A stretch of DNA of 64,000 bases from Alphaproteobacteria bacterium (GTDB taxonomy: Bacteria; Pseudomonadota; Alphaproteobacteria; Rs-D84): the NCBI GenBank assembly GCA_017535105.1, contig JAFXUI010000002.1:109270-173269 (forward strand). Reading direction: 5' to 3'. A model generated the notes under the pieces. The model was given only the letters and a program-made list of their open reading frames with translations, ran no database searches and had not been told where the DNA came from. Both the position numbers and the translations under genes were made by a program. Below, piece after piece: positions 395 through 60,805 of the stretch. The stretch's first letter is position 1; each line of letters begins with the position of its first letter.

Positions 395-1064
395 GGTTAT
401 ATCTTTTGATAAAATCCCCAGCACGCAGACGTATGCACATAATATGATTGCAGACGGGCGTGGTGCCGATCATATTGCGGTGTTGGCAGACGCACAATCG
501 GCTGGTCGTGGTCGTTATAAACGCACGTGGATTTCACATCACGGTAATTTGTATGTCAGTTTTGTTTACACTTGCGAAGAACGCGATGCACGTTTGGCTT
601 ATTCGGTGGGTGTGGCAATTGCGGAAACATTAATATCTTTTGGTGTGGTGCCGACAATCAAATGGCCAAATGATATTTTAATTGATGGGAAAAAAGTTTC
701 CGGAACGTTAATTGAATATTCGGGACGCTTTGTAATTGTTGGTATTGGTATAAACATAAAAACAAATCCAACGGTCAAGGCTTCGTATTCAACAACCAAG
801 TTAGATAACTATACAAATGTCACGCGTGATGAGTTGTTAAATAAACTTATGCGCAATTTGGATAAATGGCGTAATGCTGAATTTACAGATGTGCGTGCGC
901 GGTGGACAGAATTGGCAAGCGGATTAAATCGTACTGTGAAATATCGTGGTGAAGTTGTAGAACTGATTGGCATAAATGAAAACGGCGCGTTGGTGTTGCG
1001 TCGTGGCACAGAATATTTGCTGGTTTACGGCGATGAAATAACGATGGACACGATTACATCTTGA
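360..1064 (+). CDS. birA: Biotin--[acetyl-CoA-carboxylase] ligase, catalytic type without HTH domain
   Basis: Attaches biotin to the biotin carboxyl carrier protein of acetyl-CoA carboxylase through biotinyl-AMP. Visible family motifs are the biotin/ATP loop 'GRGRYKRTW' near residue 50 and 'KWPNDI' near residue 100, followed by 'GKKVSGTLIE' and a small C-terminal SH3-like domain. At ~234 residues it lacks the N-terminal winged helix of bifunctional E. coli BirA, so it should be a ligase only. It overlaps the preceding gene. The ATG at 360 gives a 35-nt overlap; a TTG at 381 (residue LANYKV) is a reasonable alternative start because conserved sequence begins there. Confidence 0.9.
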   Translation: MTAGCINLANYKVISFDKIPSTQTYAHNMIADGRGADHIAVLADAQSAGRGRYKRTWISHHGNLYVSFVYTCEERDARLAYSVGVAIAETLISFGVVPTIKWPNDILIDGKKVSGTLIEYSGRFVIVGIGINIKTNPTVKASYSTTKLDNYTNVTRDELLNKLMRNLDKWRNAEFTDVRARWTELASGLNRTVKYRGEVVELIGINENGALVLRRGTEYLLVYGDEITMDTITS

Positions 1065-1089
1065 CTTTTATGTCGATTTGTGATATTAT
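1061..1089 (+). promoter_or_regulatory. Strong sigma-70-type promoter of the phage-like cluster
   Basis: -35 TTGACT at 1061-1066, a 17-bp spacer, and -10 TATTAT at 1084-1089 with an upstream TGA giving an extended -10. Transcription should start near 1096. The -35 begins directly at the birA stop codon. The element matches the promoter of the orphan tail-fibre gene (47375-47403, minus) at 24 of 29 positions, including the shared core CGATTTGTGATAT. Confidence 0.75.
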
Positions 1090-1116
1090 ATGATGCATCA
1101 AAGATAGAAAATATGC

Positions 1117-1139
1117 CCACACGTTTGTGTGGTTTTTTT
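1117..1139 (+). terminator. Leader terminator 1 of the phage-like cluster
   Basis: Stem CCACAC / GTGTGG with a 4-nt loop, followed by seven T and a further A/T-rich tract. It lies only ~20 nt after the predicted transcription start and before the first gene, so transcription of the cluster must read through it. Confidence 0.75.
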
Positions 1140-1150
1140 ATTTTTTCACG

Positions 1151-1172
1151 CCCGCATTTGCGGGTCTTTTTT
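1151..1172 (+). terminator. Leader terminator 2 of the phage-like cluster
   Basis: Stem CCCGC / GCGGG followed by TCTTTTTTT, about 20 nt before the start codon of the first gene. With the hairpin at 1117 it forms a tandem barrier inside the leader. No space remains for a promoter between it and the gene. Confidence 0.7.
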
Positions 1173-1193
1173 TATCAAAAAATGGGGGTGAAT

Positions 1194-1607
1194 ATGCAAC
1201 TGGAAATTATAAACAATCCAGACGAATCACAAATCGTGTTATATAAAGTGGCGCGTGTAATATATGCAGAAACATATCCATCATCATTGCCGGCGGTGGA
1301 AGCAGTCGCGTCAATGATTCGCAATATAATGATAAAAACAGAACGCGATTTATCCGATGTGATATCTGATGAAACGATTTTTGATTCGTTAAATGAAAAT
1401 TCACCACGTCATAAATATGTTGATGTTGATATAAAAAATAATCGTGCGTTTCAAATGTGCCTGCGTGTTGTTGAACGTATGGTGCATGGTGGGTTAACTG
1501 ACACGTGTTTCGGTGCAACGCGTTTTCATCGCGCAAATGAGATGCCCGAATGGGCAACGTCACGTGGATATATCGCCGATGTTGATGGTTTGTTGTTTTA
1601 TTTATAA
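1194..1607 (+). CDS. SleB-type cell-wall hydrolase (phage endolysin-like)
   Basis: 137 residues. The N-terminal half carries the pattern of the SleB/Hydrolase_2 family: 'ARVIYAET' with the presumed catalytic glutamate, then 'AVEAVASMIRNIM'. The C-terminal part contains the family-like 'CFGATRFHRA' segment. It would cut the glycan strand of peptidoglycan and serve as the lysis enzyme of the particle cluster. There is no signal peptide, which fits release through the holin-like product of the next gene. The ATG at 1194 has a GGGGGTG ribosome site; an in-frame start at 1080 lies inside the promoter and leader and is rejected. Confidence 0.75.
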   Translation: MQLEIINNPDESQIVLYKVARVIYAETYPSSLPAVEAVASMIRNIMIKTERDLSDVISDETIFDSLNENSPRHKYVDVDIKNNRAFQMCLRVVERMVHGGLTDTCFGATRFHRANEMPEWATSRGYIADVDGLLFYL

Positions 1608-1809: not shown

Positions 1810-2466
1810 ATGGAAAAGATTCCGGAAAAATTTCTGAATGAAGATGGAACATTAAATTCTGATTCGTTACTTAAATCATATAACGCGTTGGAAAAAAAGA
1901 TTGGTTCAATGGTGTCGGTACCAAATTCCGAATCAGATGAAAGTACGCGCGAACGCTTTAACCGTGCGATTGGTGTGCCCGATGATATATCAAAATATCC
2001 AACGAACGAAATGTTTGATAACGATTCGTTACGACAAAAATTTCACGACATTGGATTAACTTGTGACCAAGTTGCAGAAATTTATTCAATCGCAAATGAA
2101 TTTTTATCACCACTGATTTCAGATTTGTTTACAATGAAAAATGAAACAAGTGCATACCAAGAATTAAAAAATTTCTTTGGTGGTGATGATAAAATGTATG
2201 ATGCATTGCGTGAAATAAATTCGTTTGGTGAAAAGTTTTTACCACACGATGCGTTTGAATCGCTGTGTCGTACACCCCAGGGAATACAAGGCGTGTACAA
2301 GATGATGCAATCAATGGAACCAAAAATTGAAACACAAAAAAATGAATCTGAAAATTTAACTGATGATGATTTGCGGCGTATGATGCGTGATCCAAAGTAC
2401 TGGCGTGACAACGATCCAGAGTATGTTCGTAAAATAGAAAATGGTTTTAAAAAATTATATTCATAA
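1810..2466 (+). CDS. Phage capsid scaffolding/assembly protein
   Basis: 218 residues, acidic and helical. The N-terminus 'IPEKFLNEDGTLNSDSLLKSY' and the C-terminus with 'MMRDPKYWRDNDPEYV' match the usual form of podovirus-type scaffolding proteins, which guide shell assembly and then leave it. It precedes the capsid gene, the classical position. Its ATG lies directly after the stop of the holin-like gene. A longer in-frame extension from 1675 overlaps that gene and is not used. Confidence 0.7.
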   Translation: MEKIPEKFLNEDGTLNSDSLLKSYNALEKKIGSMVSVPNSESDESTRERFNRAIGVPDDISKYPTNEMFDNDSLRQKFHDIGLTCDQVAEIYSIANEFLSPLISDLFTMKNETSAYQELKNFFGGDDKMYDALREINSFGEKFLPHDAFESLCRTPQGIQGVYKMMQSMEPKIETQKNESENLTDDDLRRMMRDPKYWRDNDPEYVRKIENGFKKLYS

Positions 2467-2917: not shown

Positions 2918-2927
2918 CGTTGCCTAG

Positions 2928-2961
2928 TATCAGTCGTATAGAAATGTGCGACTGATATTAT
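2928..2961 (+). promoter_or_regulatory. Candidate operator-promoter for the capsid unit
   Basis: Inverted repeat TATCAGTCG (2928-2936) / CGACTGATA (2949-2957) whose right arm overlaps an extended -10, TGATATTAT (2953-2961). The same nine bases form the extended -10 of the promoter at 1061-1089. No good -35 is visible, so an activator bound to the repeat is conceivable. Confidence 0.4.
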
Positions 2962-3045
2962 GCTGGATAATCCCGTTTGGGACCCATACAATTTTTGCTT
3001 TGTGGCGCCGTTCGGCATAACCATAAATCAAAATATTATTTGGTG

Positions 3046-3069
3046 GTGCGATTTTATCGCACTTTTTTT
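3046..3069 (+). terminator. Leader terminator directly before the capsid gene
   Basis: Seven-pair stem GTGCGAT / ATCGCAC with a TTT loop and seven T after it. It ends 25 nt before the capsid start codon, too close for a promoter to fit downstream, so capsid mRNA must pass through it. Confidence 0.75.
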
Positions 3070-3094: not shown

Positions 3095-3910
3095 ATGTCT
3101 GTTTCCATAGATCAGGTCTTCGTAAAACAATTCGAAGCAGATGTTCATTTGGCTTATCAGCAAATGGGCACAAAACTGCGCGGTTCTGTGCGCAGCAAAT
3201 CGGGCGTTATTGGTAAATCAACAACGTTCCAGAAAGTAGGCAAGGGTATTGCCAGCACAAAATCACGTCATGGTATCGTTCCAGTGATGAATTTGGACCA
3301 CGAACCTGTGGAATGCACACTGGTTGATTACTATGCGGGTGATTGGGTTGATGCATTGGATGAATTGAAAACCAATGTTGATGAACGCCGTGTTGTCGCG
3401 GCCGCTGGCGCATACGCGTTGGGTCGCAAAACCGATGAATTGATTATCGGTGCAATGTCCAACACAACAAATAATGTCGGTAATTATTCAAGTGCTTTTT
3501 CTAAAACGATGATTTTAGAAGCAATCGAAGCATTGAACGCAAAAGATGTTCCAGATGATGGCCGACGTTTTGCAGTTGTTGGTGTTAAACAATGGAACGT
3601 ATTGCTGTCTTTGGACGAATTCGTTTCTGCCGACTTTGTTGGCGATACACCGTTAACAACTGGGTTCGAATCGAAAAAGTGGATGGGCATAACTTGGTTG
3701 CTGTATAACGGTTTGCCGTTGTCCAGCACACAGCGCGATTGCTTTTTATATCACGCGTCAAGCATCGGTCATGCATGTGGGCAAGATGTCAAAACAGATA
3801 TTTCTTGGCATGGTGAACGTGCGGCGCACTTTATAAGCAACAGTATGTCCCAAGGCGCAGTGTTGATTGATAACGACGGCATCGTTCGTATCAAGTGTAA
3901 AGAACAATAA
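3095..3910 (+). CDS. Phage major capsid protein, podovirus-like
   Basis: 271 residues. The order and composition ('VFVKQFEADVHLAYQQMG', 'LRGSVRSKSG', 'DLDELKTNVDERRVVAAAGA'-like central helix, C-terminal 'DNDGIVRIKCKE') fit the HK97-fold capsid proteins of short-tailed alphaproteobacterial phages, where 'F...V.L..Q..GS.LR..V' opens the protein. It would form the shell together with the scaffold encoded upstream. No protease gene is nearby. The ATG at 3095 is used; the upstream in-frame extension runs through the leader terminator. A strong 11-pair hairpin follows the next gene. Confidence 0.8.
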   Translation: MSVSIDQVFVKQFEADVHLAYQQMGTKLRGSVRSKSGVIGKSTTFQKVGKGIASTKSRHGIVPVMNLDHEPVECTLVDYYAGDWVDALDELKTNVDERRVVAAAGAYALGRKTDELIIGAMSNTTNNVGNYSSAFSKTMILEAIEALNAKDVPDDGRRFAVVGVKQWNVLLSLDEFVSADFVGDTPLTTGFESKKWMGITWLLYNGLPLSSTQRDCFLYHASSIGHACGQDVKTDISWHGERAAHFISNSMSQGAVLIDNDGIVRIKCKEQ

Positions 3911-4218: not shown

Positions 4219-4737
4219 ATGTTCACGAAAATAGACCTTTGTTCGATGGCATTGTTAAAACTTGGCGAAAAGCCGATACAATCGCTTGTCGAAGACAGTG
4301 CCGGCGCCCAGTTGGCGCGCACTTTGTTTGATCCAATCACAGACGCATTGTTGGCATCGTACCCATGGCGGTTTGCAACGCGTACATACGAATTGACCAA
4401 GACCGATGATGACGATTTTGTTATCCCAAGTGATGTGTTACGCATACTGCAATGTCCAGGCAAAATAGAATCGGGGCGCATAATCGCCGAGCCCGACAAA
4501 ATACAAATTGTGGCATTAGTGCGCGTGTCGCCAGAATCATACCCAAGTTATTTTGTGTCGTTGGTTGCGACAAAGTTGGCGATGGACTTCTGTGTGCCAA
4601 TGACGGCCAATCACAACGTGTTCAGAATGTTGGTGGCATTATACGAAACAGAATATGCTTCGGCAAAGTTTATCGACAGCACAACAACAACGGCCACAAA
4701 TATAGAAAACTTTTCACTTGTCAATGCGCGGTTTTAA
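4219..4737 (+). CDS. Tail tubular protein A-like (gp11-type head-to-tail adaptor)
   Basis: 172 residues beginning 'MFTKIDLCSMALLKLGEKPI' and then 'SLVEDSAGAQLARTLFDPITDALLASYPWRFA'. This is the recurring pattern of T7 gp11-like adaptors, which ring the portal and receive the nozzle. It is followed at once by the gp12-like nozzle gene, the standard order. The ATG at 4219 has a GGGGGAAAAT ribosome site; an in-frame start at 4177 falls in the hairpin and is rejected. Confidence 0.75.
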   Translation: MFTKIDLCSMALLKLGEKPIQSLVEDSAGAQLARTLFDPITDALLASYPWRFATRTYELTKTDDDDFVIPSDVLRILQCPGKIESGRIIAEPDKIQIVALVRVSPESYPSYFVSLVATKLAMDFCVPMTANHNVFRMLVALYETEYASAKFIDSTTTTATNIENFSLVNARF

Positions 4738-4755
4738 TAACAATGGGGAATGACG

Positions 4756-6468
4756 ATGGTTGATTTTATAAAAACACAAAATAATTTTTCGCGTGGCGAA
4801 ATCGCCCCTGAATTTTTTGCGCGTGACGATATTGCGGGTGTTGCTAAACTTGAAAACATGGACGTATTGTCGGGTGGTGGATTGTCGCGGCGTGCGGGCT
4901 TGTCCAGTGTCACAACATTGTCCGATGTGGTGCGTATAATACCGTTTTCGGTGGGCGAAGATGAAAATTATATCCTGGCCATTGGTGATTATCGGGCAAC
5001 GATTATGGGGACCGATGGTTCTGTTGTACAAAGTTTGGTGTCGCCGTGGGCGCGTGCGGATATAAGCAAATTACAATATGCGCAACGTTTTGGAACAATG
5101 ATTTTGGTACACCCAGATTATCAACCGCGTATCATTGCCCAAACAGCCAGTGGATTCGAAATAAAATCGTTCGAATTTTCCAGCAATGATGATATGACGG
5201 TTAATATTCCATTTATGAAATTTGATGATGCGGCGGGAATAACAATAACGGTGACGTCAAATGCGGGCGGTAATAATTATGCGACATTTACAACGAACGA
5301 AAATTTTTGGTCTGCAGATAATGTTGGCGAACGCCTGTATTTAATAAACAAACAATGGGTAATTACATCGTATGTCGATGCCAAGGTGGTTGTAGCATAT
5401 ACTAATTCAACATATACATTACCAGAATCGCCCATTGCCGATTGGTTTGAAGCGGCATTCGGCGCGTATCGTGGTTGGCCGTGCAGTATCACGTTTCACC
5501 AAGACAGATTGGTCTTTGGTGGTTCGCGTAGTCACCCAAGTGGTATTTGGTTGTCCCAGGTTGGAAATCATCATAATTTTTCGGTCGGTACTGGTCTAGA
5601 TGACGAGGCGATATTTTTAACACTTGTTTCCAGTCGCCGTCAGCAAATAGCAACCGTTGTCAGCAGTGACAATTTACAAATTTTAACATCTGTGGGCGAA
5701 TGGGCAATTTCTAATAAGCCACTTACACCATCATCGGTTGATATTAAACAACATACATCGGTTGGAAGTGTTGTGTCGCGATATTTGCCACCGCAAAAGA
5801 TAGAAGGGCAAACCGTATTTGTGTCTGGCAATCTGCGCGATATTCGTGAATTGTGTTTGGACGATTTGGGTGAAAACTATAACGCGAATGATTTGTGCGC
5901 TTTGTCCAAACATTTGATGAATACGCCAGTTGATATTGCGTATAACGCGTCCGAACACAAATTATATGTTGTAATGTCGGACGGCACAATGTCGGTATTG
6001 AACTATCATTCTGGGCTGGGGATTTCAGCGTGGGGAAAATACACAACAAGGGGTGTTTTCAAATCGATTGCGGTTGTTGATAATACAACATACGTTGTTG
6101 TAAAGCGTGGCGATAATTTGAAACTTGAAAAGTTTGACGTGTCCGCAATGGACGATTGTGGTAATAACTTTGATTTTTGTGCGCATGGGTTGCCGTTGCG
6201 TGCATCTGGACATAACGTATCCAGTTTACGTGTGCGCAAGGTTGTGGCGCGTGTGCTGAACACAAAATCATTATTTATAAACGGTAAACGCGCCGTATTG
6301 CCGAACATCGTATATGATAACGATTCACTGGGCTTTTCGGGTGATGTTTCAATCACGCAACTGGGGACAGTAAAAACAACCATTGATTGTCCGTGGCAAA
6401 TTCATGGGTCTGACCCATTGCCCGCCCAGGTCATATCTGTATCAATGTACGGAAATTATGAAATATAA
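4756..6468 (+). CDS. Tail tubular protein B-like (gp12-type tail nozzle)
   Basis: About 570 residues. The start 'FIKTQNNFSRGEIAPEFFARDDIAGVAKLENMDVLSGGGLSRRAGL' in outline (function words: few N-terminal residues, 'ARDD', 'GGLSRRAG') is the hallmark of gp12-like nozzle proteins, and the long beta-rich body with 'CSITFHQDRLVFGG' fits as well. It forms the tail tip through which DNA leaves. Two ATGs (4750, 4756) are possible; the second has better spacing to GGGGA. No frameshift is seen. Confidence 0.75.
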   Translation: MVDFIKTQNNFSRGEIAPEFFARDDIAGVAKLENMDVLSGGGLSRRAGLSSVTTLSDVVRIIPFSVGEDENYILAIGDYRATIMGTDGSVVQSLVSPWARADISKLQYAQRFGTMILVHPDYQPRIIAQTASGFEIKSFEFSSNDDMTVNIPFMKFDDAAGITITVTSNAGGNNYATFTTNENFWSADNVGERLYLINKQWVITSYVDAKVVVAYTNSTYTLPESPIADWFEAAFGAYRGWPCSITFHQDRLVFGGSRSHPSGIWLSQVGNHHNFSVGTGLDDEAIFLTLVSSRRQQIATVVSSDNLQILTSVGEWAISNKPLTPSSVDIKQHTSVGSVVSRYLPPQKIEGQTVFVSGNLRDIRELCLDDLGENYNANDLCALSKHLMNTPVDIAYNASEHKLYVVMSDGTMSVLNYHSGLGISAWGKYTTRGVFKSIAVVDNTTYVVVKRGDNLKLEKFDVSAMDDCGNNFDFCAHGLPLRASGHNVSSLRVRKVVARVLNTKSLFINGKRAVLPNIVYDNDSLGFSGDVSITQLGTVKTTIDCPWQIHGSDPLPAQVISVSMYGNYEI

Positions 6469-6483
6469 CAATGGAGATAACAA

Positions 6484-6834
6484 ATGGGACAAATATTATC
6501 AGATGTTACAGACGTTCTGAATTATCAGGACTCTAAGAAAGAAGTAAATACTAAACGCAAACAAATACTGAAAGAAATTGCCGAAGACAAGGCGACAAAA
6601 ACAAACCTTGTTAAAAAAGCATTGGCGGCGCAACGTGCGAAATATGGCGCGGGTGGTGTGAACGGCGCAAATATGACAACTGGGGCGGTGTTGGAACGCA
6701 TTGAAAAAGAAACCAGTGAACCATACGACAAGAAATACAAGGCGAATTTAAGCAAATTAAAAGCGGTCAAAGAATCAAAACCGACAAACTTATTAAAGAC
6801 ATTGTTAAAACATTTTGATGACTTGGTCGGATAA
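6484..6834 (+). CDS. Small charged coiled-coil protein in the tail module
   Basis: 116 residues, rich in Lys, Glu and Ala, predicted mostly helical with coiled-coil stretches, and a small Gly-rich hinge 'KYGAGGVNGANMTTGAVLE' in the middle. It sits between the nozzle and the tail-fibre anchor, where T7-like phages often carry an internal virion protein. I do not recognise it; an internal or tail-assembly protein is plausible from position. Confidence 0.5.
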   Translation: MGQILSDVTDVLNYQDSKKEVNTKRKQILKEIAEDKATKTNLVKKALAAQRAKYGAGGVNGANMTTGAVLERIEKETSEPYDKKYKANLSKLKAVKESKPTNLLKTLLKHFDDLVG

Positions 6835-6848
6835 CAACGGGGGCGAAT

Positions 6849-7394
6849 ATGTATAAAGTTTCATATACGGGCGATGGGCAAACAACCGAATTTATTTTTT
6901 CTTTTCCGTTTTTCCAAGTTGCCGATGTGCACGTTGCGATTGATGACCAGCCAGTTGATTCGGGTTGTAGTATAATTCCAAATGATAATTTTACGGGTGG
7001 GCGTGTTATTTTTTCAGATGCTCCAGTCGAAAATACACAGATTGATATATTCCGTCAAATTTCACTGTCACGAATCATCGATTATCAACCGACCGACAAA
7101 ATAGATCCCGAAGATTTGAACGATGATTTCAATTTCTTGCTTGCGGCATTCCAAGATTTACGTGCGGTTGATGTTGATTTGTCCGCGTGGAGAAATACGC
7201 ATGACAATGTTGTGAACTTTTTGAACTATACATTGGGCATTGTCGAAGACAAATTGTCGGGCGGTGGTGTGTTGGGCATATACAATAATTTGCTGTCGGT
7301 ATTATCAAGTGCTTTGCCAGAGTTGATAAACGATTATGGTTCAATTACAGAACCGGCACCAACCGAAAACAGAGATGATTACGGCGTTCTTTGA
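6849..7394 (+). CDS. T7-like tail-fibre N-terminal anchor protein
   Basis: 181 residues. The opening 'YTGDGQTTEFIFSFPFF' with the later 'PEDLNDDFNFLLAAF' is the standard N-terminal fibre domain that clips onto the nozzle in T7-like phages. The protein ends after a short helix with no receptor-binding shaft or tip, so the distal fibre must be missing or supplied from elsewhere; the Mtd-N-like protein at 46734-47306 is a candidate. The last 20 nt overlap the terminase ATPase gene. Confidence 0.75.
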   Translation: MYKVSYTGDGQTTEFIFSFPFFQVADVHVAIDDQPVDSGCSIIPNDNFTGGRVIFSDAPVENTQIDIFRQISLSRIIDYQPTDKIDPEDLNDDFNFLLAAFQDLRAVDVDLSAWRNTHDNVVNFLNYTLGIVEDKLSGGGVLGIYNNLLSVLSSALPELINDYGSITEPAPTENRDDYGVL

Positions 7395-7983
7395 TTTTTT
7401 AGATGTGTGGAACGAACATATCGGCATGCCAACGCCAGCACACCATCGGCGAATAATGGAATTTTTAGTTGATGTGTTGGAAAACGAACCGCATCGGGGA
7501 TTGCTAACCGCGTTTCGCCATTCGGGTAAGTCAACAGTTGTCGGGGTGTTTGCCGCATGTGTTTTATATCTGCGACCAAATACACGAATATTGATATTGT
7601 CTGCGGAAAATATGTTGGCTGCGCGTATGGTGAATCATATTCGTAATATTTTGGAAAATCATCCATTGTGTGTGGATATGATTCCGAAAAATAAAAAAGA
7701 GTGGGCAACAAATAAAATCACGATAAATCGCGCGATTGGAATTCGTGAACCATCGGTTATATGCCAGGGTATTCATGGTAATATTACTGGGTCGCGTGCC
7801 GATTTGATAATATGTGATGATGTCGAAGTACCAAATACGTGTAATACGGCACAAAAACGTGAAATGTTACGGGAACGACTGCGAGAGTTAGATTTTATTT
7901 TATCGCCACATGGCGCGATGATTTACATCGGTACGCCACACACGACCGACACAATATATCGAACAACCGATGATGAAAATTAG
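7375..7983 (+). CDS. Terminase large subunit, ATPase half (split gene)
   Basis: About 202 residues covering only the packaging motor ATPase: Walker A 'FRHSGKST' near residue 47, Walker B 'DLIICDDVE' and the coupling motif 'IYIGTPHTTDTIY'. The ORF stops 'TTDDEN' just after the coupling motif, where intact T7 gp19-type proteins continue into the nuclease domain. That half is encoded at 11284-12135. The stop overlaps by 4 nt the end of the convergent gene at 7980. Start chosen at the ATG overlapping the fibre gene; an earlier in-frame start at 7336 is possible. Confidence 0.8.
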   Translation: MITAFFDFLDVWNEHIGMPTPAHHRRIMEFLVDVLENEPHRGLLTAFRHSGKSTVVGVFAACVLYLRPNTRILILSAENMLAARMVNHIRNILENHPLCVDMIPKNKKEWATNKITINRAIGIREPSVICQGIHGNITGSRADLIICDDVEVPNTCNTAQKREMLRERLRELDFILSPHGAMIYIGTPHTTDTIYRTTDDEN

Positions 7984-8660: not shown

Positions 8661-9668
8661 TTATTCCATTACAATCATAATTACCTTGTGCATAGTTTTG
8701 CCGGTAATTTTTTCAGATGCAGATGCACCCTGACCATAAACTTTGCCTTTGGAATCTTGGCGAACCGAAACGATTTGCGCGGTGGCAACGTCCGAAGATT
8801 CCAATTTTGTAAAATCAGAATCGATACAAATTGCCATATCGCCCACAGATACTGGTGCGTTTATATCGGCAAATACATATGATTTTTCAGGTAAAAATCC
8901 GCCCAAATGTTTTGTGTTTGGAATTACGGCATAGATACCCTTGCGTCCTTCAAGATTCATTGGTGCAACAATCATTGTTTCATCAGATTTCTTGAACGAA
9001 ATTGCGCGGCCCGCAGGTGTGCCAAATACTGGTACCAACTTTTTACGCGCGCTGTCATACAATTTTGCGCCATACAAACCGTCATGCATATCGATTCCAG
9101 CAACTGGATTACCCGGCACCAAAACAGATTTAACGCGTTCTTTGACCTTGTTAATTTGTTTGTTCAATTCGCCCGATTTATACAGTTTGGCGATTTTATC
9201 GAACATTCCAGAAACCGACATTGTGAACGATTTTGCCAATGGTTCGATTTCGTTTTCATAGATTTCGCGTTGTCCAACCTCTATCTTATGATACACAGAC
9301 AGTGTCATACCCGCGTCTTTGGCAGCCTGGGCAATGGTTTTGCCAGATTGCTGACGAATCTTGCGCAGGCCAGAACCGAAAACCTTTAACCCGCTGTTTT
9401 CGTTGTCGTTCAAACGGCGTTTGATTTCGCTTTGCCATTGGGTTGCGACATCATCAGATTCTTTGATGAAAATGTCGGACAGTTTACAGCCCAAAATAGT
9501 GCAGATGTTTAACAACTGCTTTTGATTCAAACGGCGAACACCCTTTTCAATTTTGGACACCGCGGACAGCGAAAGTCCCGCACGGCGCGACAATTCGGTC
9601 ATTTTCATACCGCGTGCCAATCGGATGTTGCGAATGTTATTTGGAAAAATGATTTCTTCTTGGGCCAT
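8661..9668 (-). CDS. XRE-family transcriptional regulator with two HTH domains
   Basis: 335 residues. Two XRE-type helix-turn-helix domains stand in tandem: residues ~8-65 ('IRLARGMKMTELSRRAGLSLSAVSKIEKG') and ~100-155 ('GLRKIRQQSGKTIAQAAKDAG'). A C-terminal ~150-residue beta-rich domain follows, with a general likeness to the LexA/S24 fold, but I cannot identify a Ser/Lys dyad. It could be a repressor with a sensing or cleavage domain. Lying inside the split terminase, it is a natural candidate for controlling the particle genes (inference). Good ribosome site (AAGGAG) before ATG. Confidence 0.75.
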   Translation of the reverse strand: MAQEEIIFPNNIRNIRLARGMKMTELSRRAGLSLSAVSKIEKGVRRLNQKQLLNICTILGCKLSDIFIKESDDVATQWQSEIKRRLNDNENSGLKVFGSGLRKIRQQSGKTIAQAAKDAGMTLSVYHKIEVGQREIYENEIEPLAKSFTMSVSGMFDKIAKLYKSGELNKQINKVKERVKSVLVPGNPVAGIDMHDGLYGAKLYDSARKKLVPVFGTPAGRAISFKKSDETMIVAPMNLEGRKGIYAVIPNTKHLGGFLPEKSYVFADINAPVSVGDMAICIDSDFTKLESSDVATAQIVSVRQDSKGKVYGQGASASEKITGKTMHKVIMIVME

Positions 9669-9731: not shown

Positions 9732-11285
9732 TTATAATGGCATATCGTCTGGAATCTCGCCAATATCAACATCAGAAACAGTATCGGCGGTGTTGGGTGT
9801 TGGTGGTACGTCATCAACTGGGATAAAATCAGCCATTGCACGTGCAGCGGCATCGTCCAAATTGTCGAACAAACTGTATTCGCCAAAGAAAGCAGTGTGG
9901 ACAGTTTCGGTACGACCATGACGGTTTTTACCAATGATAATTTCCGCCTTGTTCCGCGCACGTTCCACACGGCGTTTATAACTTTCTTGAATTTTTTCGT
10001 TGACGTTGCCAGACAGTTTGTTTGATGGATCGCGGTTTTCCAGATAGTATTCTTCACGATATGTGAACATAACAATATCGGCATCTTGTTCAATAGAACC
10101 AGATTCACGCAAGTCTGACAGCATTGGGTGTTTGTCATCGCGTTCTTCGACCTTACGCGACAACTGTGACAATGCGATGACTGGAACGTCCATTTCCTTG
10201 GCCAGCATTTTAAGACTACGTGTGATTTCAGATAATTCTTGAACACGGTTATCGGTTCGGCGACCGCCCGGCAATGTCATAAGTTGTAAATAGTCAATTA
10301 CAATCAATGCAATGCCACCACTTTTGCGGGCCAAACGCCGCGCACGTGTACGCATCATTGGAACCGACATACCCGGTGTATCATCAATGTACAATGGAAC
10401 GTGACTTAATGCCGATGCATATTGGGTAAGTTTCAAGAAATCGCTGTCGTTTAATGAACCATCACGTTGCGCAGCAACCGGAATTTTTGCCTGGGACGAA
10501 ACGACACGTGCCGCCAATTGACTTTGCGACATTTCAAGACTGAAAAACACAACAGCGCCCTTGTACCGTTCGTTTGCGCGACCCGACATTATTGCGTTTG
10601 CGGCATTAAAAGCAATGTTCATTGCCAATGTTGTTTTACCCATACCTGGACGACCCGCAATAATGACTAAGTCAGAATGGTGCAGACCACTGATAGATTT
10701 ATCCAAATCGGTCAGCCCAGTTGTCAGACCAGACAATTTGCCATCGGCCTTGTACGCAACTTCGGCCTCGTTCAAAGCCTGTTGTAATGCGGTGGCCAAT
10801 GGGGCAACATCGTGTTCGGACGATCCCGTTGTTGCCATTTCAAATAATTTCTGTTCGGCAACTTCGATTTGGGTTGAAACAGGATTATCTAAATCTTCGG
10901 TGTATGCGGCTTCGGTAATTCCTTGGCCAATATTAATTAATTCGCGGCGCATTGCGTTTTCATATACGATACGTCCATATTGATCAACGTTCACAACCGT
11001 TGCGCCCGCACCCGTCAGTTGGGTCAAATAGTCAACACCGCCAACCGATTCCAATATTCCCTGTTGTTCCAGATAGTTCTTCGCAGTGATAATATCAAAC
11101 GGAATACCAGCCGAAAACTGACGCATGGCAAGTTTGTATATTTCTTGGTGTGCAGGGTGCGAGAAATGTTCGGGTTTTAAAAATTCCGAAATGTGTTCCA
11201 AAGCACGATTGTTCATCAAAACAGCCGCCAAAACCGCCTGTTCTGCTTCTAAATTCGTTGGCAAAGTTTTCGGAGTAAAGTCCAT
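9732..11285 (-). CDS. dnaB: Replicative DNA helicase DnaB
   Basis: 517 residues, full length for bacterial DnaB: N-terminal primase-interacting domain ('LPTNLEAEQAVLAAVLMNN'), linker, then the RecA-like ATPase with Walker A 'GRPGMGKTT' near residue 210, Walker B region 'ALIVIDYLQLM' and 'ALSQLSRKVEERDDKHPMLSDL'. It unwinds DNA at the replication fork. The sequence is of chromosomal rather than phage type. Its ATG (complement of 11283-11285) overlaps the start codon of the divergent terminase nuclease half. There is no Shine-Dalgarno upstream, and a promoter 7 nt before the ATG suggests a leaderless mRNA. Confidence 0.93.
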   Translation of the reverse strand: MDFTPKTLPTNLEAEQAVLAAVLMNNRALEHISEFLKPEHFSHPAHQEIYKLAMRQFSAGIPFDIITAKNYLEQQGILESVGGVDYLTQLTGAGATVVNVDQYGRIVYENAMRRELINIGQGITEAAYTEDLDNPVSTQIEVAEQKLFEMATTGSSEHDVAPLATALQQALNEAEVAYKADGKLSGLTTGLTDLDKSISGLHHSDLVIIAGRPGMGKTTLAMNIAFNAANAIMSGRANERYKGAVVFFSLEMSQSQLAARVVSSQAKIPVAAQRDGSLNDSDFLKLTQYASALSHVPLYIDDTPGMSVPMMRTRARRLARKSGGIALIVIDYLQLMTLPGGRRTDNRVQELSEITRSLKMLAKEMDVPVIALSQLSRKVEERDDKHPMLSDLRESGSIEQDADIVMFTYREEYYLENRDPSNKLSGNVNEKIQESYKRRVERARNKAEIIIGKNRHGRTETVHTAFFGEYSLFDNLDDAAARAMADFIPVDDVPPTPNTADTVSDVDIGEIPDDMPL

Positions 11286-12135
11286 GTCTGATATAGTATA
11301 TAAAAATTTTGCGTTTTCAACGCCTTTTTTACGTGGATATAAAACGCTGGAAATACCGATTGTTGACGGGGACGGACGCCCCGCATGGCCCGAAATGTTC
11401 CCATTGCGCGCGATTGAAACGCTGCGCGACACGGTGGGCGCGCGACACTTTGCGTCCCAAATGTTGTTAAAGCCGGTGCCACCCGACCGAATCAGATTAG
11501 ATCCGGGTGCAATGCACTTTTATTATGACGACTTTAACCCGAATAACGCAAGAATCGGTGACGTAATTATAACGGGTGCGGCAATATACTGGGACCCCAG
11601 TTCCGGTGGGAAAAATACCGATGGCAGTGTATGCGTCATCATATATCGTGATGATAAAAACCATCGTGTGTTTATTCACGATGTTATGTATATGACGGTG
11701 CCAGAACAAGACGAACACCCAATGGCACATCAATGTGATATGGTGCTGGACTTTATGTCGCACCACAGTATGCGCAAGGTGTGTGTTGAAACAAATGGCA
11801 TTGGAAATACGTTGCCTGAAATATTGCGCGATTGTGCGTTGCGGCGTGGATATGACATTATTGTTCAACGTGTTGTAAATAACAAACGTAAATCAGACAG
11901 AATTATCGACACCATTGAACCGTTATTATCAACGGGACGATTGTATTGTGCGGAACGTGTGCGCACGACACTGTTGTTGTCGGAAATGATTGGGTGGTCG
12001 CCCGTGGGATATGCTACGCACGATGACGGAATTGATGCGATCGCGGGTGCGATTATGGCGACACCAATACCAATTCACCCGATGGGGCGGGTGGGCAGAA
12101 TGTATTCTGCAAATACAAAATTCAAAATTTCTTAA
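11284..12135 (+). CDS. Terminase large subunit, nuclease half (split gene)
   Basis: 283 residues corresponding to the C-terminal part of T7 gp19-type terminases. It starts with the linker region 'FLRGYKTLEIPIVDGDGRP' and 'VGARHFASQMLLKPV'. The RNase-H-like nuclease follows, with acidic residues in 'IYWDPSSGG', 'VCVETNGIG' and 'THDDGIDAIAG'. It cuts concatemeric DNA during packaging. It has its own ATG with GGAG 8 nt upstream, so it can be translated separately. The in-frame extension to 11125 is dnaB antisense and is rejected. Portal follows in normal order. Confidence 0.8.
   Translation: MSDIVYKNFAFSTPFLRGYKTLEIPIVDGDGRPAWPEMFPLRAIETLRDTVGARHFASQMLLKPVPPDRIRLDPGAMHFYYDDFNPNNARIGDVIITGAAIYWDPSSGGKNTDGSVCVIIYRDDKNHRVFIHDVMYMTVPEQDEHPMAHQCDMVLDFMSHHSMRKVCVETNGIGNTLPEILRDCALRRGYDIIVQRVVNNKRKSDRIIDTIEPLLSTGRLYCAERVRTTLLLSEMIGWSPVGYATHDDGIDAIAGAIMATPIPIHPMGRVGRMYSANTKFKIS
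11293..11320 (-). promoter_or_regulatory. dnaB promoter inside the terminase nuclease gene
   Basis: On the minus strand: TTGAAA (11315-11320), a 16-bp spacer, TACTAT (11293-11298), then 7 nt and the dnaB ATG. Transcription would start at or next to the A of the ATG. The promoter lies within the first codons of the divergent gene. Confidence 0.55.
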
Positions 12136-12158: not shown

Positions 12159-13391
12159 ATGTCAACAAACATTAAACAATTACAACAAATGTATGCGCGT
12201 GCGCTGGATATGCGTGCGCCATGGATAAAACGTTGGGACGATGCGCGCAGATATACCACACCCACGTCAGATGAAGATATGGCAACATTATTCGATTCAA
12301 CCGCGTCTGATGCCGCAGATAATTTGGCCGCGTCAATATATTCGCTGATAACACCACCAGAATCGTTATGGATGACACTGGTGCCCGAAAGCGATATGTC
12401 ACCAAACCCAGAAATCGCAACGAATGTTTTTCGTGCGAATCTGAATGATTCTAATTTTTATACAACGATACACCAGTGTTATATGGATTTGGTCGTTATG
12501 GGTACTGCGTGTTTGTTTATGGCGGAAAACCCAATTGGTGCTGCATCGGCATTTTCTTTTACAGCAATTCCAATGTATGATATTGCGATTTTACCAAATG
12601 CGGTATTTCACACAACGTCAATGCACGCGTGTGATGTAGTTGCTCGTTTTCCTCAATGGACACCGCCGACAGACATTCGTGATAAAATGGCACGTGACCC
12701 GGAAATGCCATTAAAGTTGGTTCAAAGTTTGGTGGGTGCCGATTTTGTTGCGTGGTTAGACGTTGGTGGCGATATTGAAAACAATATTGTTTCAACGGGT
12801 ACATTTGAAACCAACCCATATATTATTTTCCGTTGGTCGCTTTCCAGTGGTGAATTATATGGTCGTGGCCCAGTTATGCGTGCGTTGCCCGATATTAAAA
12901 CAGCTAACAAGGTTGTGGAATTAGTATTGAAAAACGCGACAATCGCAGTTTCTGGAATTTGGCAGGCCGATGATGACGGTGTTATCAACCTGGGTAATAT
13001 TAATTTAACACCCGGTGCAATTATACCAAAGGCAGTTGGTTCATCTGGATTAACCCCATTATCATCGGGTGCAAATTTTGATGTTTCACAATTGGTATTA
13101 AAAGATTTGCGCGAACGGATACGTCACGCGTTGTTGGCGGACCGGTTGGGGTTGTTGTCAGACAAAGAAATGACTGCAACAGAAATTATGGCGCGTAATG
13201 CCGACATGATGCGTGTTCTGGGCGCGACATACGGTCGTTTGTTACACGAATTTATACGACCATTGGTGGATCGTGGATTACAGATTTTATCGCGCCGTGG
13301 CGTGATTGATAAAATCGTTCTGAACAGTGACGCAGAATTGAAATATATTGCGCCAATCACACAAATGGCGATTGCCGAAAATATAATATAA
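12159..13391 (+). CDS. Phage portal (head-to-tail connector) protein
   Basis: 410 residues. The opening 'YARALDMRAPWIKRWDDARRYTTP' and 'TASDAADNLAASIYSLITPPESLW' are typical of the T7-like head-to-tail connecting protein family, as is the later 'TATEIMARNADMMRVLGATYGRL'. It forms the ring at one vertex that docks terminase and tail adaptor. It is somewhat shorter than many portals of the family (about 500 residues) but shows no break. It follows the nuclease half of terminase by 23 bp in the same direction. Confidence 0.85.
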   Translation: MSTNIKQLQQMYARALDMRAPWIKRWDDARRYTTPTSDEDMATLFDSTASDAADNLAASIYSLITPPESLWMTLVPESDMSPNPEIATNVFRANLNDSNFYTTIHQCYMDLVVMGTACLFMAENPIGAASAFSFTAIPMYDIAILPNAVFHTTSMHACDVVARFPQWTPPTDIRDKMARDPEMPLKLVQSLVGADFVAWLDVGGDIENNIVSTGTFETNPYIIFRWSLSSGELYGRGPVMRALPDIKTANKVVELVLKNATIAVSGIWQADDDGVINLGNINLTPGAIIPKAVGSSGLTPLSSGANFDVSQLVLKDLRERIRHALLADRLGLLSDKEMTATEIMARNADMMRVLGATYGRLLHEFIRPLVDRGLQILSRRGVIDKIVLNSDAELKYIAPITQMAIAENII

Positions 13392-46733: not shown

Positions 46734-47306
46734 TCAACAATAAATATGGAACTTTAATTTCCATTCGCTGTTCACGATGTCGGTTTTTGCGCCTGTTGTC
46801 TTGTGTGCGACCCAAAATGCCTGGTTCCCGACCAGTAATTGAACGTTTAATCCATATTCATCGGTATATGTATTAAACATCGGGGTCGTGTATGTGCCAA
46901 TGCCAAACGCAAACGTTTCATCGCCCACCGCATAGCCCGCCGCCGCGGTTTGGCACACGATTGACGCGCGAATATCGTATGGTGTGGCCGTAACGCCGGT
47001 AAAAAGGTATTCGATAATTGTGGCGTTGGATACGGTGATTGGGGTGCTGGACGTGATTGTAATTGGCGCGGGCATAACACGCGTGACAATTTCGGTCCAT
47101 TTGGTGTCTGGGACGGTGTCTATGTCAAATTCGGTTGCTGGGTCCGGTATTTCATCGGCACGCGCCAGCGCAAATCCGCCAAGTGTTGTGCCATCGTGAA
47201 CGCGAAGAGTGTTGGCGGTCGTATCAAATGTGATTTCGCCGGCAAGTCCCGTAAAGTTATCATTTTGTGCGGTTGTTCCGCGCCGAATTTGTAAAACTCG
47301 TGTCAT
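46734..47306 (-). CDS. Orphan tail-fibre protein with Mtd-N-like start
   Basis: 190 residues. The N-terminus 'LQIRRGTTAQNDNFTGLAGE' plus 'TLRVHDGTTLGGF' is the collar/fibre domain known from the N-terminus of the major tropism determinant and many phage fibres. The rest is beta-rich with no recognised tip; there is no C-type lectin signature or diversity-generating cassette nearby. It lies alone among host genes, 33 kb from the portal gene, but its promoter matches that of the particle cluster (24 of 29 positions). Probable receptor-binding fibre of that particle (inference). Confidence 0.72.
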   Translation of the reverse strand: MTRVLQIRRGTTAQNDNFTGLAGEITFDTTANTLRVHDGTTLGGFALARADEIPDPATEFDIDTVPDTKWTEIVTRVMPAPITITSSTPITVSNATIIEYLFTGVTATPYDIRASIVCQTAAAGYAVGDETFAFGIGTYTTPMFNTYTDEYGLNVQLLVGNQAFWVAHKTTGAKTDIVNSEWKLKFHIYC

Positions 47307-47334: not shown

Positions 47335-47361
47335 AATAAAAAAACACCGATATTTCGGTGT
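47335..47361 (-). terminator. Leader terminator before the orphan fibre gene
   Basis: Minus-strand stem ACACCGA / TCGGTGT with a 4-nt loop and TTTTTTTATTT. It ends about 28 nt before the fibre start codon and follows its promoter, as in the particle cluster. Confidence 0.75.
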
Positions 47362-47374
47362 CAGATTGGTTACA

Positions 47375-47403
47375 ATTATATCACAAATCGCAACAAAAAT
47401 CAA
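47375..47403 (-). promoter_or_regulatory. Promoter of the orphan fibre gene, near-copy of the cluster promoter
   Basis: Minus-strand TTGATT (47398-47403), 17-bp spacer, TATAAT (47375-47380) with extended -10 TGA. The -35 overlaps the stop codon of the 833-residue gene. Compared with 1061-1089, only five of 29 positions differ; the block CGATTTGTGATAT is identical. Confidence 0.7.
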
Positions 47404-59523: not shown

Positions 59524-59589
59524 CATTTTTCACTGGACTTGTTGATTTGTTCGGGTATGTGTTGTGTCGTAAACTAAGAGGTGACACAT
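59524..59589 (+). repeat. Leader repeat copy A
   Basis: About 65 bp before the integrase start codon, starting CACTGGACTTGTTGATTTG and ending AGAGGTGACAC. It is ~80% identical to 60809-60874 upstream of the next gene. Probably a shared promoter/operator and ribosome site. Confidence 0.7.
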
Positions 59590-60805
59590 GAAATGGCAGT
59601 GTTCAACAAAAGCATTTAGAGATGTCTGGATCAAGAATTTGACCAGTGACTGTAATTTGCAAATTACGGACGGAACTATCCCAGGTTTAATATTAAGGTA
59701 TTCGACAAATACCCATAAGATAAGTTTTTATTTAGCTTATAGGAGCAAGGTAACAAAAAAGCGCAGGGTAATGCTTGTTGGTAAGTACGAAGATTTCAAA
59801 TTGTCTGAAATTAAGGAACGTGCTCACGATCTCCGAAAAATGATATTCCTTGGACAAGACCCAATGGAGGAACAAGCAAAAGAAATTAAACAAAAACTGC
59901 AAGAACAGGAAGAACAAAAACCGGTGGATGAGGTCTTTGCAGAATATCATGAAAAATATTCAAAAGTTTATAAGAAACCATCTACCCAACGTTCCGATAT
60001 CAATGAGTACAACTATTATATTAAGAAACGATTTGGGGCAAGACCAATCAGAAGTATCGAAGAAAAAGACATTGCAGATGCATATACTGACTGGGCTAAA
60101 GCAACATCGTTTTCAACAGCAAACAAGATTATGTCGCTGTTCTCGAGTATGTGGGAATGGGCTGTAACGTACAAATACGTCCCACGAGGCAGCAACCCTT
60201 GTCAATATATAAAGAAAGGTTCAAACGAGAAATTCAAACCAACAGTATTAGACATAGATGGGTATCAGCGATTGTTTAAATCATTAGACAAGGGTATGAG
60301 AGAAACAAGAATGCACAAACGGTTCTTCAGAGCGTTAAAGCTGTTGGCCTTAACCGGATGCCGTTGTTCAGAAATAACAGAACTTGAATTAGATGAAGTA
60401 GATCTAGAGAAAAAGATGATACGTTTGAATGATAGTAAAACTGGGGCCAGAAACGTAAAACTATCAGATGCTGCAGTAACAGAATTATCAAAGGCTGTTG
60501 CAGAGGCACAAAAAATGAAGAGTACAAGATTTGTATTCCCTGGGGTGCTTGACAAAAATAAGCCGATATCAAACGTAACAAAACCATTTGATTGGGCATT
60601 AAAAGATGCCGGACTACCCCACATGCGAATACACGATCTGCGACATTCGTTCATCACCATGGGGGCAACCATGGGCGAAAATATGAATGCACTGAAAGAT
60701 GCGGCCGGACATACCAAAATCACAACAACGGAAATGTACACGCACGTAGGCGATGCCTGCACATTTAATGCTGTAAATCACATCGCTGATGCTATTTACA
60801 AATAA
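59588..60805 (+). CDS. Tyrosine recombinase/integrase
   Basis: 405 residues: an N-terminal DUF4102-like arm-binding part ('LILRYSTNTHKISFYLAYR', 'GKYEDFKLSEIKERAHDL'), a SAM-like core-binding part, and a catalytic domain with Arg in 'TGCRCSEI', 'HDLRHSF' and 'AGHTKITTTEMYTHV' with the nucleophile Tyr. It should integrate and excise the element occupying the right end. No tRNA is directly next to it. Confidence 0.93.
   Translation: MKWQCSTKAFRDVWIKNLTSDCNLQITDGTIPGLILRYSTNTHKISFYLAYRSKVTKKRRVMLVGKYEDFKLSEIKERAHDLRKMIFLGQDPMEEQAKEIKQKLQEQEEQKPVDEVFAEYHEKYSKVYKKPSTQRSDINEYNYYIKKRFGARPIRSIEEKDIADAYTDWAKATSFSTANKIMSLFSSMWEWAVTYKYVPRGSNPCQYIKKGSNEKFKPTVLDIDGYQRLFKSLDKGMRETRMHKRFFRALKLLALTGCRCSEITELELDEVDLEKKMIRLNDSKTGARNVKLSDAAVTELSKAVAEAQKMKSTRFVFPGVLDKNKPISNVTKPFDWALKDAGLPHMRIHDLRHSFITMGATMGENMNALKDAAGHTKITTTEMYTHVGDACTFNAVNHIADAIYK

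Follow-up and report, generated by a model that had tools for sequence, protein, structure and literature searches.

A promoter and tandem intrinsic terminators upstream of a podovirus-like particle cluster in Enterousia-like Alphaproteobacteria: a candidate antitermination-gated regulon

In this study, we have analyzed a 64,000-nucleotide stretch of DNA (the window) from an 870-kb genome and have found that a promoter followed by two tandem intrinsic terminators stands before the first gene of a phage-like particle cluster. This architecture, its conservation across the family and its recurrence at unlinked particle genes are well established. We consider it probable, at roughly two chances in three, that the site acts as a master switch for the particle cluster and that the regulon is gated by processive antitermination loaded at the promoter. 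Among the relatives of the host, those with names are Candidatus Enterousia and gut Alphaproteobacteria related to it; Enterousia, with its reduced genomes, has been assigned to the order Rs-D84 (PMC12306168).

Promoter and terminators upstream of the endolysin gene

The initial annotation of this DNA had described a near-consensus promoter and two tandem intrinsic terminators before the first particle gene, and our analysis confirmed their presence at positions 1061 to 1173 (Table 1) and showed that they are retained in relatives. With 10 of 12 matches, the promoter is the top scorer within the first 4 kb, and an RNA terminated at T1 is predicted to be approximately 45 nt long, counting from the start near 1096. 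The tail of T2 at this locus consists of a C and then seven Ts, and T2 ends approximately 20 nt 5' of the endolysin ATG. The accompanying claim that no promoter lies downstream of the terminators also held: none fits in the remaining 20 nt or so before the ATG, and of 83 related loci, only 1 has a further promoter-like site in the interval from +1 to the ATG.

Table 1. Coordinates of the regulatory elements and particle genes in the window
Feature	Position	Strand	Details
Extended -10 promoter	1061..1089	+	TTGACT-17-TATTAT, TG before -10; predicted start near 1096
Short leader	1096..1116	+	CATCAA/CATAAACAG-like in relatives; without conserved start codon
Intrinsic terminator T1	1117..1139/1140	+	Stem 1117-1132 (CCACACG..TGTGTGG), -7.8 kcal/mol, then TTTTTTT
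Intrinsic terminator T2	1150..1173	+	Stem 1150-1165, core CCCGCATTTGCGGG, -8.3 kcal/mol, then CTTTTTTT
Endolysin (Hydrolase_2-like), first cluster gene	1194..1607	+	phrog_938 E 6.5e-8; PF07486 E 0.0026, under Pfam cut-off
T7-like capsid assembly (scaffold) protein	1810..2466	+	PF05396
Major capsid protein	3095..3910	+	PF19821
Tail proteins, main cluster	4219..7394	+	phrog_394, phrog_376, phrog_1640
Large terminase, ATPase half	7336..7983	+	Match just under Pfam cut-off; conserved place
Large terminase, nuclease half	11284..12135	+	Split from ATPase half by opposite-strand genes
Portal / head-tail connector	12159..13391	+	PF12236
Tail fibre protein, Mtd_N domain	46734..47306	-	PF18454
Second module terminator	47338..47360	-	CACCGAAATATCGGTG-TTTTTTT
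Second module promoter before tail fibre gene	47375..47403	-	TTGATT-17-TATAAT

We compared the DNA upstream of the endolysin gene at 83 Enterousia-like loci (order Rs-D84). The promoter is kept at all 83, as is at least one terminator, and both terminators are present by a strict rule at 71; the remaining 12 have one terminator by this rule, and most of them show a mispaired second hairpin. Two terminators appeared in 1 of 1,660 dinucleotide-shuffled controls. TTGAC occurs at all 83 loci and, like the TG of the -10, is 100% conserved in the alignment; the spacer is 17 nt long at 82 loci and 18 nt long at 1, and nearly all loci have the extended -10. In these endolysin-class loci T1 begins at about +20, with RNA release predicted at about +46. 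The 71 two-terminator loci carry 31 distinct 6-base arms for T1 and 54 for T2, their mean hairpin energies are -8.3 (T1) and -12.9 (T2) kcal/mol, and their terminator tails average 7.7 to 7.8 Ts per 9 nt. Furthermore, covariation analysis showed that the T1 stem pairs vary on both sides. Since the hairpin arms diverge while their pairing stays, selection acts on the structures and not on the sequence. A covariance model of the promoter, leader and T1 matched 175 of the 183 family genomes and all 13 genera; in the genera g2, g3, g8 and g12, where the loci were read directly, the tandem arrangement was again located 5' of the endolysin gene.

The birA gene (360 to 1064) lies near the start of the window, and its stop codon overlaps the -35 element. 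As birA thus lacks a dedicated terminator 5' of the promoter, T1 and T2 would stop birA transcripts too, and it can be envisioned that the terminators merely keep transcripts from birA or other upstream genes out of the lysis genes, the promoter being incidental. The lack of another terminator after birA is consistent with such insulation; however, conservation is highest in the promoter, which always stands 5' of the terminators, and no promoter follows T2. In addition, a gene other than birA lies upstream at 6 of the 83 loci, where the promoter-terminator module is still found, and the satellite modules described below follow unrelated genes. Insulation as the sole function is therefore quite improbable.

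The leader of the endolysin class is moderately conserved (CAT[A/C]AA.AG..A), and this raises the question of whether the terminated RNA of about 45 nt is the product itself, acting in trans as a small regulatory RNA. We regard this as very unlikely, since the leaders of the tail-fibre class are different and shorter and their predicted RNA of about 34 nt is mostly hairpin, which makes a common small-RNA function hard to envision. A cis-acting RNA device that sets readthrough, be it a put-type antiterminator, a leader peptide or a riboswitch, is hardly credible. Such leaders commonly control terminators, and one structured RNA with a terminator behind it is indeed found further downstream, 5' of the capsid gene; however, there are some 20 nt or fewer 5' of T1, T1 alone emerged from the covariation analysis as a conserved structure, and the leader has no match in Rfam. 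A leader peptide encoded between the promoter and T1 was also considered and rejected, as an ATG is present in just 25 of the 83 leaders and is not conserved.

Particle cluster and satellite modules

The genes downstream of the terminators encode proteins for lysis, assembly, packaging and tails (Table 1), and we saw no replication or integration genes of the element's own in the main cluster. The capsid gene is present in 162 of the 183 family genomes and in 111 of the 115 good genomes, and the gene order around the host dnaB gene is the same in most of 19 fetched relatives; the dnaB gene inside the cluster matches the host replicative helicase model. The dnaB row of the comparison of relatives, for which a wrong reading frame had been taken, was left out. 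The element's genes are dispersed over several host loci. Such prevalence of the capsid gene and such constancy of gene order are typical of a particle that has been domesticated and is passed on vertically. The cluster is a podovirus-like, domesticated and vertically kept element that resembles a gene transfer agent (GTA), and packaging of host DNA is putative.

Several other features of the region were observed. Three opposite-strand genes lie between the two terminase halves: host dnaB, the gene for an XRE regulator and one that encodes 217 amino acids. The start codons of the C-terminal terminase half and dnaB overlap head to head, and members of the genus and of one further genus share the split. 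The XRE regulator (8661 to 9668) has two helix-turn-helix motifs and is 75 to 94% identical in the genus, which few other proteins encoded here match; it is possibly a repressor of the element, or else a host regulator. A small, repetitive, Lys/Ala/Pro-rich protein resembling histone H1 is encoded in the cluster at 2574 to 2864 and may condense DNA. Near the far end of the window, a tyrosine integrase gene (59588 to 60805) and the small genes that come after it, as far as the last position, probably form an integrated island of their own.

The cluster also has internal terminators: the stretch from the Lys/Ala/Pro-rich gene to the capsid gene carries them at 68 of 74 and 46 of 74 loci. The capsid leader also contains a conserved structured RNA (2925 to 3065; 190 nt 5' of the capsid gene in L219 to L297), which was found at 74 of 77 loci and shows two-sided changes in 10 of 11 consensus pairs. 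It consists of a GGAYAATCC..GGACCC hairpin and then a GGCGC..GCATAACC hairpin with an AUAA bulge. A comparison with Rfam gave no convincing match. The RNA is often followed by a terminator-like hairpin (46 of 74 loci), as in a riboswitch-like or packaging-RNA-like leader. Within the same region (2930 to 2965), the inverted repeat CAGTCAGA..TCTGACTG is kept in relatives, here as CAGTCGTA..TGCGACTG; a T run often comes after it, suggesting a terminator and perhaps an operator too.

The arrangement recurs elsewhere in the genome. A second module precedes a tail fibre gene in the window, another promoter-terminator unit lies 5' of a second tail fibre gene on a different contig, and a phage lysozyme gene (PF00959) of this genome is preceded by a promoter and two terminators. 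Of the tail-fibre loci that we fetched, 30 in number, 25 have the promoter, in every case with one or more terminators after it; two of the five loci that lack the promoter (L135 and L138) immediately follow the final gene of the main cluster. The satellite modules stand after unrelated genes. One genome (G109) lacks, in its main cluster, the tail gene equivalent to 6849 to 7394; a 49% identical homologue is located elsewhere, behind its own promoter and two terminators.

The promoter string by itself is generic: it is widespread in unrelated viral contigs, and of the 82 copies there, none had a terminator after it. It is the combination of the promoter and an immediate terminator that therefore marks the particle genes. 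Two further matches to the promoter pattern (C2:1606 and C2:166081) were tried as modules and rejected, since they have no hairpin and are ordinary promoters. In the distant phages L322 to L329, we detected neither a covariance-model match nor a promoter-terminator pair.

In G000 and its relatives, several tail-fibre paralogues are scattered in each genome; they have the Mtd_N start in common, and their C-terminal parts are variable. It is possible that these paralogues represent a variable receptor-binding repertoire of the particles.

Candidate antitermination factors and the proposed mechanism

The initial annotation had suggested a search for a Q-like or NusG-like protein. Profile searches for the Q family (PF06530 and PF03589) gave no match, and a single NusG gene was found, with no extra copy. 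DUF6456, a GafA-type domain, likewise gave no match, and the Caulobacter control was positive in the same search. A 217-amino-acid protein encoded beside dnaB (p217) was examined as a candidate antiterminator and rejected, because its gene is also present in good genomes that have no capsid gene (G178 and G122); this distribution, together with a predicted all-helical model that matches nothing, indicates that it is probably a host gene.

The results of these searches, and the fact that T1 is short (mean, -8.3 kcal/mol), are compatible with leaky attenuation that needs no dedicated factor: two imperfect terminators would set a steady low level of expression, and general changes in termination under stress would raise it. 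Given the leakiness of intrinsic terminators, a low constitutive level of expression may occur. As a full explanation we nevertheless consider leaky attenuation unlikely, since a weak promoter would achieve the same with less machinery, and dosage by itself hardly accounts for the retention of the two strong elements in 13 genera and at four particle genes that are unlinked.

Regulated readthrough best accounts for a strong promoter that points at one or two terminators before each of four unlinked assembly or lysis genes. From module to module, the leaders vary in length and sequence, and the hairpin begins at about +20 in the endolysin class and at +1 to +12 in the tail-fibre class, which argues against a common RNA structure as the signal. 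The promoter is the part that the modules have in common, and this points to a factor that is loaded there. The initial annotation had named lambda Q-like and put-type systems as models; the former, being promoter loaded, fits better, whereas the differences in leader and in T1 position count against the latter. The very early hairpin of the tail-fibre class would, at the same time, count against a Q-like loading pause. Some spacer bases are common to the modules, but a spacer motif between -35 and -10 was rejected as a diagnostic binding element, since the rho promoter has a similar spacer and no terminator at all.

We postulate that the strong sigma70-type promoter fires and that T1 (at about +45) or T2 then halts transcription, which would leave the endolysin, capsid, packaging and tail genes almost silent. 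During particle production, an antiterminator that binds both DNA and RNA polymerase would be loaded at the promoter and would take the polymerase past T1, T2 and the terminators internal to the cluster; a processive modification of the polymerase would be useful given the additional terminators before the capsid gene. The same factor would also open the satellite modules for tail fibres and phage lysozyme, so that assembly and lysis would be switched on together. The earlier proposal that the operon is silent unless an antiterminator acts thus gains support from the family-wide selection on the promoter and terminators and from the recurrence of the unit at dispersed particle genes, whereas termination in vivo, readthrough and a promoter-loaded protein factor are what we infer from that pattern. 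More tentatively, and at slightly less than even odds, the dispersed GTA regulon may be controlled family-wide by a novel family of processive antiterminators that has no sequence relationship to Q, the GafA/GafZ-type proteins or NusG paralogues and that acts on terminators 34 to 46 nt from the start.

Comparison with known systems

The arrangement is reminiscent of bacteriophage lambda, in which the late lysis and structural genes are silent behind a terminator (tR') until the antiterminator Q loads at pR'. In lambda, tR' lies approximately 190 nt downstream; the end of T1 in the present modules is at about +45 or +34, and no protein of the Q family was found. The closely comparable AlpA system of Pseudomonas aeruginosa has predicted intrinsic terminators between the promoter and the first gene, one for alpB and two for PA0807 (PMC7969949, PMC9371919). 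As in the present case, lysis genes lie behind promoter-proximal terminators. One promoter-loaded antiterminator serves two unlinked targets in P. aeruginosa, alpBCDE and PA0807 (PMC7969949, PMC9371919), much as we propose for the modules described here; however, P. aeruginosa belongs to a different bacterial class, and the regulon described here makes a particle.

The Caulobacter GTA, like the element studied here, is an alphaproteobacterial particle cluster with a promoter and terminators, and its control by GafY/GafZ involves an antiterminator that binds between -35 and -10 and is needed for full transcription (PMC11150451). Its terminator, terGTA, sits after the first gene (PMC11150451), whereas the terminators of the Enterousia family sit before it. 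Furthermore, the element described here has a podovirus-like particle, repeats its modules at satellites and lacks DUF6456. Another podovirus-like, GTA-like element of gut bacteria that occupies more than one locus is FpGTA of Faecalibacterium, as described in the accessible part of its published account (PMC12946183). Its host belongs to the Bacillota, and that part of the account makes no mention of terminator-gated promoters; it does report DNA packaging, which is putative for the element described here.

The kind of control proposed here is therefore already known; what is new is that no Q-family, GafA-type or extra NusG factor is recognizable, that the terminators are unusually near the start, that the unit is repeated at satellites and that the element is podovirus-like and apparently independent. 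The promoter with its immediate terminator provides a sequence signature for members of the particle regulon in uncultured bacteria, including genes that would not otherwise be assigned to it, and the hunt for the antitermination factor becomes a defined problem. If the proposed mechanism is correct, antitermination control would reach beyond RcGTA-type elements to one that is podovirus-like and apparently independent, which suggests that domesticated particles have repeatedly retained the late-gene antitermination of phages as a safety lock.
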